From: Desulfurivibrio alkaliphilus AHT 2
GTDB taxonomy: Bacteria; Desulfobacterota; Desulfobulbia; Desulfobulbales; Desulfurivibrionaceae
Reading direction: 5' to 3'
Length of the DNA stretch: 64,000 bases
NCBI RefSeq assembly: GCF_000092205.1
Contig: NC_014216.1
Coordinates: 2,919,742 to 2,983,741 of the forward strand
Shown: positions 21,062-31,253 of the stretch, one piece after another
Numbering within the stretch: the stretch's first letter is position 1
Layout: every line of letters starts with the position of its first letter
Position numbers and translations under genes: made by a program
The notes under the pieces: generated by a model
The model's input: only the letters and a program-made list of their open reading frames with translations
Database searches by the model: none
Told to the model about the DNA's origin: nothing

Positions 21062-21128
21062 CCTGTTCCCTTCTGGTCGCTCACATGCAGACTTGTGCCC
21101 ATTTCCCGGGGCGGGTATTTTCTCCTCC

Positions 21129-22109
21129 ATGAATCGACGTCAATTTGTCAAACTGGGCCTGGGCGCGGCCCTGGCCGGCGGGCTGGGCGGCGCTTTGACC
21201 GCTTGCGGCCGGCGCGGCGGCGATGGTCGGCCGCGGTTACGGTTGGGCTATCTGCCCATTACCGATCATCTGCTGCTGTTGGCCCACGACTATTACGATT
21301 TCCAGCAGGTTGAACTCGTCCCGGTCAAGTTTTCCTCCTGGCCGGAAGCGGCCGAGGCCTTGCGGGCCGGGGCCGTGGACGCCGCTTTTCTGCTAACCCC
21401 GCTGGGCCTGGCCCTGCGCCACCAGCGAACCCCGGTGCAGGCGGTGTTGCTGGGCCACCGTAACGGCAGCGTGCTGACCCTGGCGGCCCGGGATGATATT
21501 GACTCCCCGGCCGGGCTGGTCGGCAAACGGATCGCCATTCCCAGCCGTTTCTCCAGCCATTACCTGCTGCTGCGCCGGCTACTCGATGACGCCGGCCTGC
21601 CCCCCGAAGCGGTGGAATATATCGACATGGCCCCGCCGGAGATGGTCCAGTCCCTGGCCGCCGGCCGCCTGGACGGCTTCATCGTGGCCGAACCTTTCGG
21701 GGCCCAGGCCGAGATGCAGGGGGTGGGGCGGGTTTTCACCCTCTCCAAGGATATCTGGCCCGGTCATATCTGCTGCGTACTCAATCTGCGGGAACCCTTC
21801 CTCCAAAAAAATCCGGAGGCGGCGCAGGAGTTGGTGGCTGGGCTGATCGCCACCGGCCGGGCCATCGAGCAGGATCGTCTTCGGGCCGCCCGCCAATCGG
21901 TGGCCTACCTGGGGCAGGCCCCTGAGGTGATCGAGTTTGTCTTGACCAGGCCGCCGGATCGGGTAACTTATCATGATCTTTTGCCGCAAAGGGCCGATTT
22001 CGCCGCCACCCAGGAACAGATGGCTCGGGTCGGCCAGCGGGAAGCGGCCGCGGTCAACCTGGACAATTACCTGGAGCCGGCCCTGGCGGCTGCCGCAGCC
22101 GGGATTTAA
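21129..22109 (+). CDS. ABC importer substrate-binding lipoprotein (nitrate/sulfonate/taurine type)
   Basis: 326 residues. The N-terminus MNRRQFVKLGLG has a twin-arginine-like signal and the lipobox LTAC, so it is probably a Tat-exported lipoprotein. The mature part is an NMT1/SsuA-type binding protein (LRLGYLPITDHLLLLAH, DGFIVAEPFGAQAEM, HICCVLNLREPF). ATG 21129 is chosen because it starts exactly at the signal; a longer frame from 21093 adds unlikely residues. It is followed by the permease and ATPase genes. The ligand is unknown, with sulfonates, nitrate or a thiamine precursor possible. Confidence 0.88.
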   Translation: MNRRQFVKLGLGAALAGGLGGALTACGRRGGDGRPRLRLGYLPITDHLLLLAHDYYDFQQVELVPVKFSSWPEAAEALRAGAVDAAFLLTPLGLALRHQRTPVQAVLLGHRNGSVLTLAARDDIDSPAGLVGKRIAIPSRFSSHYLLLRRLLDDAGLPPEAVEYIDMAPPEMVQSLAAGRLDGFIVAEPFGAQAEMQGVGRVFTLSKDIWPGHICCVLNLREPFLQKNPEAAQELVAGLIATGRAIEQDRLRAARQSVAYLGQAPEVIEFVLTRPPDRVTYHDLLPQRADFAATQEQMARVGQREAAAVNLDNYLEPALAAAAAGI

Positions 22110-22188
22110 GAATAACTTTTGCCGGCTAATCTCTATACGATTTTCGAAGACAGATGCTCATGTTTGACTTACGCAGTGAATTTCCCGC

Positions 22189-22980
22189 ATGATGTCGGTT
22201 TCTCCTCATTCCCGCCGGCCTGATTTGGCCGGTGAACGCTTTTGGTCGCCGCTGTTGGCGGTGCTGGTTTTCTTGCTGCTCTGGGAAGTGGCGGCCCGCC
22301 TTTACGCCAACCCTTACCTGTTGCCCGGACCCTGGCAGGTGGGGCTGGGACTGGTGGAGGTTTGGCGCAGCGGCAAGCTTTTCGAGCATATCGCCGTCAG
22401 CCTCTACCGCTTCGGGGCCGCCTACCTGTTGGCGGTGGTACTGGCCGTGCCGCTGGGGTTGGTGCTGGGCTGGTTTACCCGCCTGCACCGGGCGCTCGAC
22501 CCCCTGATCCAATTGCTGCGGCCGATCTCCCCGGTGGCCTGGTTCCCGTTGGCCGTACTATGGTTTAAAATCGGCGATTTGCCGGCCATTTTCATCATCT
22601 TTATTGCCAGTTTTTTCCCCATTCTGCTCTCCACCATCGCGGCGGTGCGCAACGTGGAGTCCACTTACCTGAAAGTGGCGCTCAACTTCGGCTCCAGTAA
22701 GTGGAGCCTGCTGCACAAGGTGGTGATTCCCGCCGCCTTCCCCTATATCATGGTGGGGCTGCATATCGCCCTGGGGGTGGGCTGGATTCACTTGGTGGCC
22801 GGAGAGATGTTGGGGGCCCAGTCGGGCCTGGGCTATTTTATCCTTGATGCCCGCAATTTCCTGCGCACCGATCTGGTGATCGTCGGCATGCTGCTGGTGG
22901 GCGCCCTGGGGTTGCTGCTGGATCGCTTGATGGCCGCAGCGGAGAAGAAAGTACGCCGCCGTTGGGGGATCGTTTCATGA
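22189..22980 (+). CDS. ABC importer permease
   Basis: 263 residues with six predicted membrane segments, BPD_transp_1/SsuC-TauC family. The EAA-like loop is visible as ALNFGSSKWSLLHKVVIPAAFPYIMVG near residue 165, the contact site for the ATPase. The start ATGATG at 22189 has no strong ribosome site. It overlaps the ATPase gene by 4 nt. Confidence 0.92.
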   Translation: MMSVSPHSRRPDLAGERFWSPLLAVLVFLLLWEVAARLYANPYLLPGPWQVGLGLVEVWRSGKLFEHIAVSLYRFGAAYLLAVVLAVPLGLVLGWFTRLHRALDPLIQLLRPISPVAWFPLAVLWFKIGDLPAIFIIFIASFFPILLSTIAAVRNVESTYLKVALNFGSSKWSLLHKVVIPAAFPYIMVGLHIALGVGWIHLVAGEMLGAQSGLGYFILDARNFLRTDLVIVGMLLVGALGLLLDRLMAAAEKKVRRRWGIVS

Positions 22981-23723
22981 AGATTGTCGCCCGGGGTGTG
23001 GGAAAGCATTTTCATGATAAGCGGGGGCAGGATCTGCCGGTGCTGCAGGGGCTTGACCTGACGGTGGGCGGTGGTGAGCTGCTTTGCCTGCTGGGGCCCA
23101 ACGGTTGCGGCAAGACCACCTTTCTGAACCTGCTGGCCGGTTTTGAGCCGCCCGATGAGGGTGAGATCGCCATCGACGGCCGCCTGGTAACCGGCCCCAG
23201 CCCAGAGTACGTGATGATCATGCAGAGCTACGATCTCTTCCCCTGGCGGACGGTGCTGGGTAATGTCGAATACGGGTTGGAGGTCCGGGGCTGGAAACGG
23301 GAGAAGCGTCAGCAGAAGGCCCGCGAACTGATTGCCCTGGTCGGGCTCAGTGGCTGCGAAGAGCAGCACCCCCGCGAGCTTTCCGGCGGCATGCGCCAGC
23401 GGGTGGCCATTGCCCGGGCCCTGGCGGTGGAGCCCCAGGTACTCTTCATGGATGAACCTTTCGGCGCCCTGGACGCGCTGACCCGTAGCCGGATGCAGCA
23501 AGAGCTGCTCAAACTCTGGCGTCGCCGGGGCATGACCATTGTCTTTGTTACCCACGACATCCAGGAGGCGATCACCCTGGCCGACCGGGTAGCGGTGCTC
23601 CCCTCCGCCCCCGGTCCCTTCCGGGCCGTCATCCAGGTTGAGCTGCCCCGCCCCCGCCATCCCCGTGATCCCGCCGCCCTGCCGCTGCGCGACCGCCTGG
23701 AGCAACTCCTGCAACCGACGTAA
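22977..23723 (+). CDS. ABC importer ATPase
   Basis: 248 residues, SsuB/TauB/NrtD type. Walker A GPNGCGKTT, Q-loop MIMQSYDLFPWR, signature LSGGMRQRVAIARAL, Walker B VLFMDEPFGALD and the H-loop VTHDIQEA are intact. ATG 22977 overlaps the permease stop (ATGA). The stop TAA is supplied by hairpin element E5. Confidence 0.94.
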   Translation: MKIVARGVGKHFHDKRGQDLPVLQGLDLTVGGGELLCLLGPNGCGKTTFLNLLAGFEPPDEGEIAIDGRLVTGPSPEYVMIMQSYDLFPWRTVLGNVEYGLEVRGWKREKRQQKARELIALVGLSGCEEQHPRELSGGMRQRVAIARALAVEPQVLFMDEPFGALDALTRSRMQQELLKLWRRRGMTIVFVTHDIQEAITLADRVAVLPSAPGPFRAVIQVELPRPRHPRDPAALPLRDRLEQLLQPT

Positions 23724-28365: not shown

Positions 28366-28791
28366 TCAAGAGCGGGGACCGGCTCCCCGACCGCCGCGGC
28401 CGCCCATGCCGGTCGGTCCGCCGCAGGTGCCGAACCGGCCGGCGCGGGCAATCCCGGCCTCGCTGGCCTGGGCGCGCATCTGGTTGCGCAGGTCGAAGAC
28501 CTCTTCGCTGAGGGCCTTGGCCCGGGCCTCGTCACCGGCGTTGATGGCGGCCTGTAACTGTGCCTGCTTGGTTTGGATTGTTCGGCGCAGTTCCCGGGTT
28601 GCTTCGTAAAAAGCCTCCCGGGCCTGCAGGGTTTCTTCGTCCAGGGCTACGCAGTTGGGGCCGTCGCAGTAGCCTGCCGCCATCCCGTAGCCGCCCGGAC
28701 CGTAACCGGCGCCAGGACGGGCCTCGGCCAGCTGGTAACCGGTGAATCCCAGAGCCGCTACCATTGCCAGGGTCATAAGGGTCTTTTTCAT
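28366..28791 (-). CDS. Periplasmic Spy/ZraP-like protein
   Basis: 141 residues. A signal peptide (MKKTLMTLAMVAALGFTGYQLAEA) is followed by a Gly/Tyr-rich stretch, then a helical hairpin (ETLQAREAFYEATRELRRTI and ALSEEVFDLRNQMRAQ) typical of the LTXXQ/CpxP/ZraP fold of periplasmic metal-responsive or chaperone proteins. Cysteines in YCDGPNC and FGTCGG could bind metal. A strong AAAGGAG site precedes the ATG. The C-terminus is Gly/Arg-rich. Confidence 0.8.
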   Translation of the reverse strand: MKKTLMTLAMVAALGFTGYQLAEARPGAGYGPGGYGMAAGYCDGPNCVALDEETLQAREAFYEATRELRRTIQTKQAQLQAAINAGDEARAKALSEEVFDLRNQMRAQASEAGIARAGRFGTCGGPTGMGGRGGRGAGPRS

Positions 28792-29018
28792 GATCGTTCT
28801 CCTTTTGGGGTTTGGTTGGTAAGTTTTGATGACCTTTGCCCTGGGATTAATACAATAAGTGTGCCAAAAGAAGTTTTTCTTTTTATCCCCTTGTTGTTGC
28901 AGAGTTGTGCGCTGATAATAGTGCTCGGCCGGGTGCCGGCGGTCAGCCTGTTTTGGGCTTGATGGATAAATTTTACTCAACCATCGCCCGGCCGGTTGGG
29001 TACTTTTTAACCGGCCGG

Positions 29019-30956
29019 CTAAAACATCTCTTCCACGGCCCCCAGTGCCACCACTTCCTGGGTGTGCATCAGGCGGTCGATATCCAGCAGGATGGTCACG
29101 CCCTCCTTGAGCTTGGCCATGCCCAGGATCATGTGTTGATCCACGCCGGTGCCGAAAGAAGGGGCGTCTTCCACCTGGTTGTCCTTGACGTTGACCACTT
29201 CCGAAACCGAATCGACGATGATCCCGGTTAAGGTGGAGCCGCGCACCCCGGAGATTTCCACTATAATGATACAGGTGCGTTCGTTGTAGGCGGCCTCTTC
29301 CATGCCGAATTTCAACCTCAGATCCATCACCGGGATCACCCGGTCGCGCAGGTTGATAACGCCCTTGAAAAAAGAGGGCATGTGCGGCAGCTCATGGATA
29401 TCCATCAGGCCGATGATCTCTTTGACATCCAGGATGCCGATGCCGTAACGTTCGCTGCCCAGGCTGAAGACCAGATACTTGCCTTCCCGGCTGCTAAGCT
29501 GCTGCTTTTCTTTGAACTCTTCCATCTTCAAAGCGCCGCTGCGCTGGCCGTTTTCCCCGCCGGCGGGGCGAGCTCCTCCCTGGCCGCAGGCCTTGGAGGC
29601 GAAGCGGGTCTCGATGAAGGCGTCAAGGTCGATGGTGCGGCCGATTTCCATTCTGTTGACCATATAATCCTGGATGGTCTCCAGGTCTTCCTTCACCGGG
29701 TAAAGGTCATGGTAGACAATGCCGGCGGGATCGGAGAGCACATTTTTCAGCAGGGCCGGCTCCAGCCCAATGCTTTTTTCCGGATCGAGGAAATCCACGG
29801 CGATTTGGGCTGAGCGGTCGATATCTTCCTTAATGGATTTGCCGGCCTTGACCACCAGGTCGGTGAATTCCTGGACCGCTTCCGGGTACTGGGCAATGAT
29901 TTCATCGCGGAAGACCACCACGCAGCAGGGGTGGTGGTCCCAGATTTCGCTGGACAAAAATTGTTTCTCGGCAATGCCGGCGGCGATGGCCCGGCTGCCG
30001 ATGGGCTCGGCCACCAGAAAACCGCTGGCTTCGGGGTTGTCTTTCAAAAACTGGGGCATGGCCACCGGTGGGGCCACGTCGAACAGCACATTCACCGCTT
30101 CCTTGCCGGCTACCCCGGGTTTCAGCCCCATCTGGGTGAAGTACATGTGGGCCAGCATGTTGTGAATGGACATCTTGTGGGGGATGTAAAAGGTTTTGTG
30201 CTTGAAAAACTGCTGGTAAGGCTTGATGTACTTGCCCTGGCGGTTGCGCACGCAGATGCTGCCGTTGCGGTGGGCAAAGAGCACCAGCTTCAGGGGCACG
30301 TCGTAGCTGAACAGGTCCATGGCCGCCGGTGCCAAAATAAAGGCGCCGTCCACCTCGAAACTTTCCAGGGCGCCCTGAACCGGATTCCAACTCCCCATAC
30401 ACTTGGTTTCCAGGGTAAAGTGGGCCGGCGTTTCCCGGCCGGTATCGATCCAGTGTTTGAGCACCCCCAGGGCCAGGTGATCGGTGATCTGGATATGGGC
30501 CATTTTCAGGTTGACCTTACCTTCGCTGGAGACCTTGGGGCCCTCATCCACCTTGGGCACCTCCTCCTGTTCCAGGCCGAAGGCCTTTTCCATGGCGCTT
30601 TTCAGTTCGGGGGGGGTAAAGGGTTTGGCCACTACCCCGCTGGCGCCGCCCTCCAGGGCTTTGGCTACGTATTCCTTGTCGCCGTGGCCGGTGGCCATAA
30701 GAAAGGGGATATCCTTAAGCTGTTCCTGGCTGCGCAGCCATTGCACCAGTTCCAGGCCGTCCATGTTGGGCATGGACCAGTCGCTGATAACCAGGCCGAT
30801 ATCCTGATCGGCTTGCAGCTTTTCCACCGCGTCCTGGCCGTCCACCGCTTCGACAATATTATTGAAGCCTACCTGGCCCAGGATTTTGGCCTCCATTTTA
30901 CGCATGGTGCCGGCGTCTTCAACAAGCAGGATCTTGATGTTGGGGTCGATGGCCAT
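29019..30956 (-). CDS. Receiver - substrate-binding-protein domain - CheW fusion
   Basis: 645 residues. Residues 1-125 are a receiver with D59 (VISDWSMPN), T/S region LMATGHG and K111. Residues ~148-455 look like a soluble NMT1/SsuA-type binding-protein domain without a signal peptide: FAHRNGSICVRN, SGFLVAEPIGSRA and HHPCCVVVFRDE mirror the ABC binding protein at 21129. Residues ~490-645 are a CheW domain (EGKYLVFSLGSERYGIGI, GVINLRDRVIPVMDLR). This is a CheV-like scaffold with an inserted ligand domain. AAAGGAG precedes the ATG. No other chemotaxis genes are present in the window. Confidence 0.88.
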   Translation of the reverse strand: MAIDPNIKILLVEDAGTMRKMEAKILGQVGFNNIVEAVDGQDAVEKLQADQDIGLVISDWSMPNMDGLELVQWLRSQEQLKDIPFLMATGHGDKEYVAKALEGGASGVVAKPFTPPELKSAMEKAFGLEQEEVPKVDEGPKVSSEGKVNLKMAHIQITDHLALGVLKHWIDTGRETPAHFTLETKCMGSWNPVQGALESFEVDGAFILAPAAMDLFSYDVPLKLVLFAHRNGSICVRNRQGKYIKPYQQFFKHKTFYIPHKMSIHNMLAHMYFTQMGLKPGVAGKEAVNVLFDVAPPVAMPQFLKDNPEASGFLVAEPIGSRAIAAGIAEKQFLSSEIWDHHPCCVVVFRDEIIAQYPEAVQEFTDLVVKAGKSIKEDIDRSAQIAVDFLDPEKSIGLEPALLKNVLSDPAGIVYHDLYPVKEDLETIQDYMVNRMEIGRTIDLDAFIETRFASKACGQGGARPAGGENGQRSGALKMEEFKEKQQLSSREGKYLVFSLGSERYGIGILDVKEIIGLMDIHELPHMPSFFKGVINLRDRVIPVMDLRLKFGMEEAAYNERTCIIIVEISGVRGSTLTGIIVDSVSEVVNVKDNQVEDAPSFGTGVDQHMILGMAKLKEGVTILLDIDRLMHTQEVVALGAVEEMF

Positions 30957-31253
30957 GATTGCTCCTTTGGTCTGGCGGGTTGGTGGTTGTTGTCCGTCAG
31001 GTTCGGCGATGCCCGGTGCTTTTTGGCTCCGGGGGCGGTTCCCCCGGGCTGTTGGTGCAACATATAATAGGTTACTATAGACTAAGCCGCAGCGACCGGC
31101 AAGGGGTTGCAGCCATGGTTGCAGTGAGCGGATGACAACGAATTTCCTGGTGCATTGGCGGGCGCAGTCCTGCTATAGTGTTACGGTTTATAAACGATAA
31201 GGAGCCGGGAACCCTTTCCGGCGGCTTGCACCACAAACCTAGGAGGCCGGGTT
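30957..31253. other. Intergenic region between divergent genes
   Basis: 297 bases separate the start of the REC-SBP-CheW gene (minus) from the small membrane protein gene (plus). A consensus TATAAT lies at 31063-31068 with no good -35 partner, and a TATAGT box lies at ~31175. No gene is seen here. Confidence 0.4.

Follow-up and report, generated by a model that had tools for sequence, protein, structure and literature searches.

A receiver, solute-binding protein and CheW fusion in Desulfurivibrio alkaliphilus: a candidate coupling protein of chemotaxis with a built-in cytosolic ligand sensor

Background

The chemotaxis protein CheV joins a CheW domain and a phosphorylatable receiver (REC) in one cytosolic protein of two domains, in the order CheW-REC and with no ligand domain; its phosphorylated Asp, D238, lies after the CheW part, and phosphorylation controls receptor binding (PMC12691637). 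Sensing in the cytosol by solute-binding proteins (SBPs) of the transporter type has precedents as well. NasS, of the NasS-NasT pair, is an NrtA-family binding protein without signal peptide that acts in the cytosol as a nitrate sensor, is reported to conserve all the nitrate ligands and, as a separate protein, controls a receiver-domain partner, the RNA-binding ANTAR regulator NasT (PMC3795266). The C-terminal regulatory domain of CmpC, which also provides a precedent for cytosolic sensing of this type (PMC11349869), is like that of NrtC a cytosolic NrtA/CmpA-like domain attached to an ABC ATPase, and is thought to regulate transport rather than chemotaxis. The nitrate ligands of NrtA itself are Trp102, Gln155, His196, Lys269 and Gly240 (PMC13204499). 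Finally, in indirect chemosensing a periplasmic binding protein works together with an MCP, the ligand being met outside the cell and signalled via the MCP.

Here we analyse a stretch of 64,000 nucleotides (the window) from the chromosome of D. alkaliphilus, a soda-lake bacterium, in which one gene encodes a receiver, an SBP clamshell of the type normally used by importers, and a CheW domain. This REC-SBP-CheW combination was not found in the literature searched, which was chiefly open-access. The preliminary description of the locus had called the protein CheV-like, which holds in so far as CheW and an intact receiver are present in one cytosolic protein, for which array docking and phosphorylation feedback would be expected, but does not hold for the arrangement of the parts: the receiver is N-terminal, a binding domain of 310 residues follows, and CheW is C-terminal, so that by domain order and by its extra domain the fusion is not a CheV. 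With NasS it shares a cytosolic NrtA-like domain working with a receiver, whereas the counterparts of Gln155 and Lys269 are replaced, the receiver is part of the same chain and the output is CheW. The domain of CmpC/NrtC, which lies near in the fold search, resembles it in being cytosolic and joined to another module, although that module is a different one. The solved Staphylococcus aureus protein 3un6 and an exported binding protein encoded at position 21129 of the window share its fold and have a pocket of the same Trp/His/Cys-Cys type, yet both are importer parts with neither REC nor CheW, and the latter has an export signal. As in the systems of binding protein and MCP, a transporter-type binding protein would serve as the chemotaxis sensor, but in the fusion it is inside the cell and joined to an adaptor.

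Results and discussion

Gene, domain architecture and predicted fold

The fusion gene occupies positions 29019-30956 on the minus strand (read from 30956 down to 29019) as a single ORF of 645 codons plus the stop codon, with no internal stops, and a Shine-Dalgarno-like AAAGGAG (30962-30968, minus strand) precedes its ATG by 5 nt. A Pfam search of the protein bore out the three modules first described, with all matches exceeding the curated cut-offs: Response_reg at residues 9-122 (30591-30932; E = 3e-25), NMT1_2 (PF13379) at residues 146-378 (E = 1e-21; 78.2 bits against a cut-off of 24.7) and CheW (PF01584) at residues 493-633 (29058-29480; E = 7e-36), the last with an NLRD motif. Neither an MCP signalling domain nor an ANTAR domain was found in the same search. 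The solute-binding (NMT1_2/NrtA-like) domain as a whole extends over residues 146-456 (29589-30521) and is flanked by two variable linkers, residues 126-145 (30522-30581) and 457-490 (29487-29588), all these features being on the minus strand. No signal sequence was seen in the translation, in which the SBP domain is internal and C-terminal to the receiver, in agreement with the absence of a signal peptide noted previously.

An AlphaFold2 model based on 56 members of the family (mean pLDDT 87.4, pTM 0.78) was weak mainly at about residues 460-490, in the low-confidence linker before CheW. The SBP part of the model forms a clamshell, for which Foldseek against the PDB returned 3un6 (target TM 0.91) and further NrtA (2g29), the CmpC regulatory domain, CmpA and TauA, while the other parts matched CheW (8c5v/2qdl) and CheY. 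On this model the central region is an SBP fold, and a non-SBP fold could be discarded. The label of an SsuA/NMT1-type domain between the modules was thus correct as to a complete SBP (Pfam NMT1_2 and the model), but SsuA-type describes no more than the superfamily, and among solved structures its nearest relatives are 3un6, NrtA and the cytosolic regulatory domains of CmpC/NrtC. A frameshift joining separate genes is ruled out by the uninterrupted ORF and by 74 homologues with intact architecture (see below).

Downstream of the fusion, also on the minus strand (28366-28980), lies a gene for a small protein that is Gly-rich at its ends and apparently has a signal peptide; it has no Pfam match, and by eye it has the look of a ZraP/Spy-like metal-stress protein.

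Distribution and phylogeny of the family

Close homologues of the full protein occur in 15 of the 247 sampled genomes of the phylum, nearly all of them full length and with 47-92% identity. A genome scan of a species-representative collection yielded 189 relatives of the SBP part, and among the best 80 loci, which were examined for their architecture, the order REC-SBP-CheW was intact in 74, four had REC-SBP without CheW (L092, L097, L115, L116) and two were split fusions (L074, L111). The motifs at residues 153-160 and 229-237 were used as scan patterns, so that their conservation in the scan set is partly built in; both are conserved also in the homologue set gathered without the patterns. 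Because it recurs in 15 of 247 genomes and is intact in 74 of the best 80 loci, the fusion is no assembly accident. Fusion loci are mostly from Desulfobacterota, the others being MAGs labelled Ignavibacteria, Melioribacteraceae, KSB1, Latescibacterota, Acidobacteria, Anaerolineae and Thiotrichales, for which mis-binning is possible. The cultured hosts comprise D. alkaliphilus, D. dismutans, Desulfacinum and Desulfonema magnum, and D. dismutans AMeS2 (L037) carries an orthologue 92% identical to the window fusion.

In an unrooted maximum-likelihood tree of 79 SBP domains, the REC-fused domains formed one clade, all lying on one side of a branch with support 100/100, and the cytosolic domains, including three free-standing ones without signal peptide, were split from all the exported ones (100/99). 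A single move into the cytosol and a single fusion would be the simplest reading of this unrooted tree. The proteins of the REC-SBP group may have lost CheW or not yet gained it. In two loci (L092:6539-8948 and L115) the gene of a free cytosolic SBP precedes that of a REC-SBP protein lacking CheW, and the two may form a sensor pair with a different output. The design of the fusion is old and conserved.

Links to chemotaxis and motility

The host has a second REC-SBP-CheW fusion, a paralogue of 711 aa (L036:2704-4839; chromosome ~782.6-784.7 kb), placed in a che operon with the order CheW, several MCPs, fusion, MCP, CheR, CheB, CheA, CheD and more; no che genes lie beside the window fusion. The two proteins are 60% identical over REC-SBP and 65% identical in their SBP parts, against 45% in their CheW tails. 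The tail of the paralogue is 78% identical to the CheW of its own operon, as if it had been exchanged or converted, and that of the window fusion comes nearest to the CheW encoded next to the host's second CheA (53% versus 45%). Since the CheW tails are nearest to the CheW proteins of different operons though the SBP parts are similar, comparison of these sequences suggests that the two fusions are each fitted to a different CheA system. The stretch before the host che operon contains a transposase-like gene (L035:8938-10230), of IS256 type by eye.

Genes for MCP, CheA, CheR, CheB or CheD also adjoin the fusion in other genomes (L064, L068, L081, L094, L096, L102, L103), and a CheX-family phosphatase gene does so in L096 and L157, which fits a phosphorylated receiver. 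In the genome G016 an exported SBP of the same Cys-Cys (CC) type (L170:7782-8897), with no transporter genes adjoining, lies in a che operon with the order CheR, CheW-CheW, SBP, MCP, PstS-like, CheA, CheB, the gene arrangement of a binding protein that signals through an MCP. More than one route thus connects this SBP subfamily with chemotaxis.

CheA and FlhA are present in all 15 sampled fusion genomes, the background for CheA in the phylum being 177 of 244 (a comparison uncorrected for relatedness). D. dismutans AMeS2 has flagella and is motile (PMC12142623). The genome paper of D. alkaliphilus describes it as non-motile (PMC5016858) and a later paper as motile (PMC12142623), and it carries FlhA and flagellin-domain genes (chromosome 2009920 and 1661636). 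No flagellar sigma-28-like promoter was found upstream of the window fusion. In the family, three of the upstream regions of 56 members contain strict matches; mononucleotide shuffles give an expectation of 0.02. Sequences of this type upstream of the fusion in L056, L095 and L105 (TAAA, 15-16 nt, GCCGATA) hint at flagellar co-regulation in some hosts.

The binding pocket and other neighbouring genes

Pocket positions were matched to those of NrtA with a HMMER alignment and a joint alignment. W190 (30387-30389; minus strand, as are the following) aligns with Trp102, S233 of the motif H.NGS (30258-30260) with Gln155, H265 (30162-30164) with His196, C345 of the HPCC motif (residues 342-345; 29922-29933) with Lys269, and A316 with Gly240. 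Relative to the NrtA site, Trp and His are kept, and Gln155 is replaced by Ser and Lys269 by Cys in every family member, W190, S233, H265, C344 and C345 being invariant in the 56 members. The set Trp/Ser/His/Cys-Cys is also found in exported binding proteins of the ABC type from the window (21129), from L077/L112/L114, from Desulfobacterota and from several plasmids, and 3un6 departs from it only at Ser, having Asn instead. Given the identical residues in these exported proteins, the pocket of a defined subfamily of ABC binding proteins is retained in the fused domain.

The invariant Cys pair, together with the many histidines, among them the invariant one of the pocket, might bind metal or react with sulfur species and make of the fusion a metal or thiol/redox sensor. 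The zinc with which 3un6 was solved would agree with this, as would the sulfur-related neighbours in a few loci (a DsrC-NifS fusion in L071, a rhodanese in L093) and the relative near cysK on plasmid pANL. However, such neighbours are few and absent from the host locus, and the occurrence of the Cys pair in exported binding proteins gives it the look of an ancestral pocket feature and not of a cytosolic switch, so that we consider a metal or redox sensor rather unlikely.

Other genes recur beside the fusion. A class V aminotransferase (NifS-like) protein is encoded upstream in L071, L100 and L107, with an N-terminal DsrC-like domain according to Pfam in L071, the other two being alike by eye. 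In six loci, among them MAGs of different phyla, a DUF169-like protein of ~290 aa is encoded next to the fusion, downstream in L081, L083, L098 and L105 and upstream in L094 and L161, two of these proteins being confirmed with PF02596; as an obligate partner it was rejected, the D. alkaliphilus genome having none.

Kinship with ABC transport

Motifs parallel to those of the ABC binding protein at 21129 had been pointed out at the outset, which proved correct: 34% identity over ~295 aa (E = 3e-34), with six motifs in common (ITDH, H.NGS, S.H, (A/P)P..M, VAEP and H.CC). This exported protein and the two fusions are the three PF13379 genes of the D. alkaliphilus genome. Its gene (21129-22109, plus strand; alternative TTG start at 21093) is accompanied on the same strand by those of an ABC permease (22189-22980) and an ABC ATPase (22962-23723), whose functions were read from sequence. 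The transporter lies ~5 kb from the window fusion on the opposite strand, and no ABC permease or ATPase adjoins the latter.

In three related loci (L077, from Desulfonema magnum, L112 and L114) the genes immediately downstream of the fusion encode, in order, an ABC ATPase, an exported SBP of the same pocket and a permease. Such an arrangement, and the presence of the CmpC and NrtC regulatory domains, which are cytosolic, among the nearest solved structures, would suit a flow of information in the reverse direction: REC and CheW would supply the input and the SBP would act on the importer as a regulatory domain in the cytosol, so that the fusion conveys the chemotaxis or phosphorylation state to the ABC transporter. 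Most loci, however, have no transporter of this type adjoining, and in several che genes are found instead; we regard this reverse flow as unlikely.

In G036, CheX and a free-standing cytosolic SBP come after the fusion. As hints to the ligand, the plasmid operon neighbours of related binding proteins are mixed (cysK, acyl-CoA-dehydrogenase-like genes and cooS). A Ruminococcus albus plasmid (L132:5821-10559) carries the gene of a related ABC binding protein with those of permease, ATPase and cooS (CO dehydrogenase) behind it.

Conservation of the three domains

Examination of the 56 family members showed residues E13, D14, D59, T89 and K111 of the receiver to be invariant (56/56). The mean frequency of the top residue was 0.71 in the SBP core, 0.64 in REC and 0.60 in CheW, the SBP being the best conserved, and both linkers varied freely. 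A cytosolic SBP in which Gln155 and Lys269 of NrtA are replaced could be thought to bind ligand no longer and to serve as spacer or scaffold between REC and CheW. A spacer would nevertheless drift like the linkers, whereas the pocket is invariant in the most conserved of the three domains, and the replaced residues match those of exported ABC binding proteins, which makes a mere spacer quite improbable. A cytosolic nitrate/nitrite sensor for chemotaxis, amounting to a NasS domain wired to CheW, might be suggested by the cytosolic NrtA-like sensor NasS, by the relatedness of NrtA in sequence and fold and by nitrate reduction in the host (PMC5516251), but it is very improbable given that two of the four side-chain nitrate ligands are changed in every member and that NasS reportedly retains them all (PMC3795266). 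With Gln155 and Lys269 replaced, nitrate is unsupported as a ligand: judged from the aligned residues, a nitrate-type site is unlikely, and the ligand is probably not nitrate.

Proposed function

On balance we lean towards the view that the fusion is a coupling protein of the chemotaxis system that itself carries a cytosolic ligand sensor and would report an imported metabolite to CheA under feedback by the receiver. The CheW domain would dock into the CheA-receptor array, and the clamshell would bind a small cytosolic molecule, most likely what a CC-type ABC importer such as that at 21129-23723 takes up, or a closely related compound. Closing of the clamshell would alter the coupling between receptors and CheA and thereby bias the output through CheY, this being the presumed direction of the signal, and the N-terminal receiver, phosphorylated by CheA, would give feedback or set engagement, as in CheV. 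We take this mechanism to be the most economical one. Each half has a precedent, CheV for REC and CheW, and NasS and the CmpC domain for sensing by a cytosolic SBP. The anatomy of the fusion is well supported and the mechanism moderately supported. To the broader proposal, that the adaptor layer, rather than a receptor, is where the level of an imported metabolite is fed into the array, in a widespread and ancient class of proteins with feedback from CheA via the attached receiver, we would give an even chance.

Conclusions

The usual view is that chemotaxis receives its inputs through receptors. If our reading is true, a coupling protein that has a ligand-binding clamshell built in would constitute a second entry point, and cells could steer by the cytosolic level of something that they import. 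The fusion would also extend the small set of transporter binding proteins that have been turned into intracellular sensors, formed by NasS and CmpC/NrtC, and as a conserved family with cultured hosts it is amenable to direct tests. Our results suggest that some bacteria steer by the contents of the cell and not solely by its surroundings.
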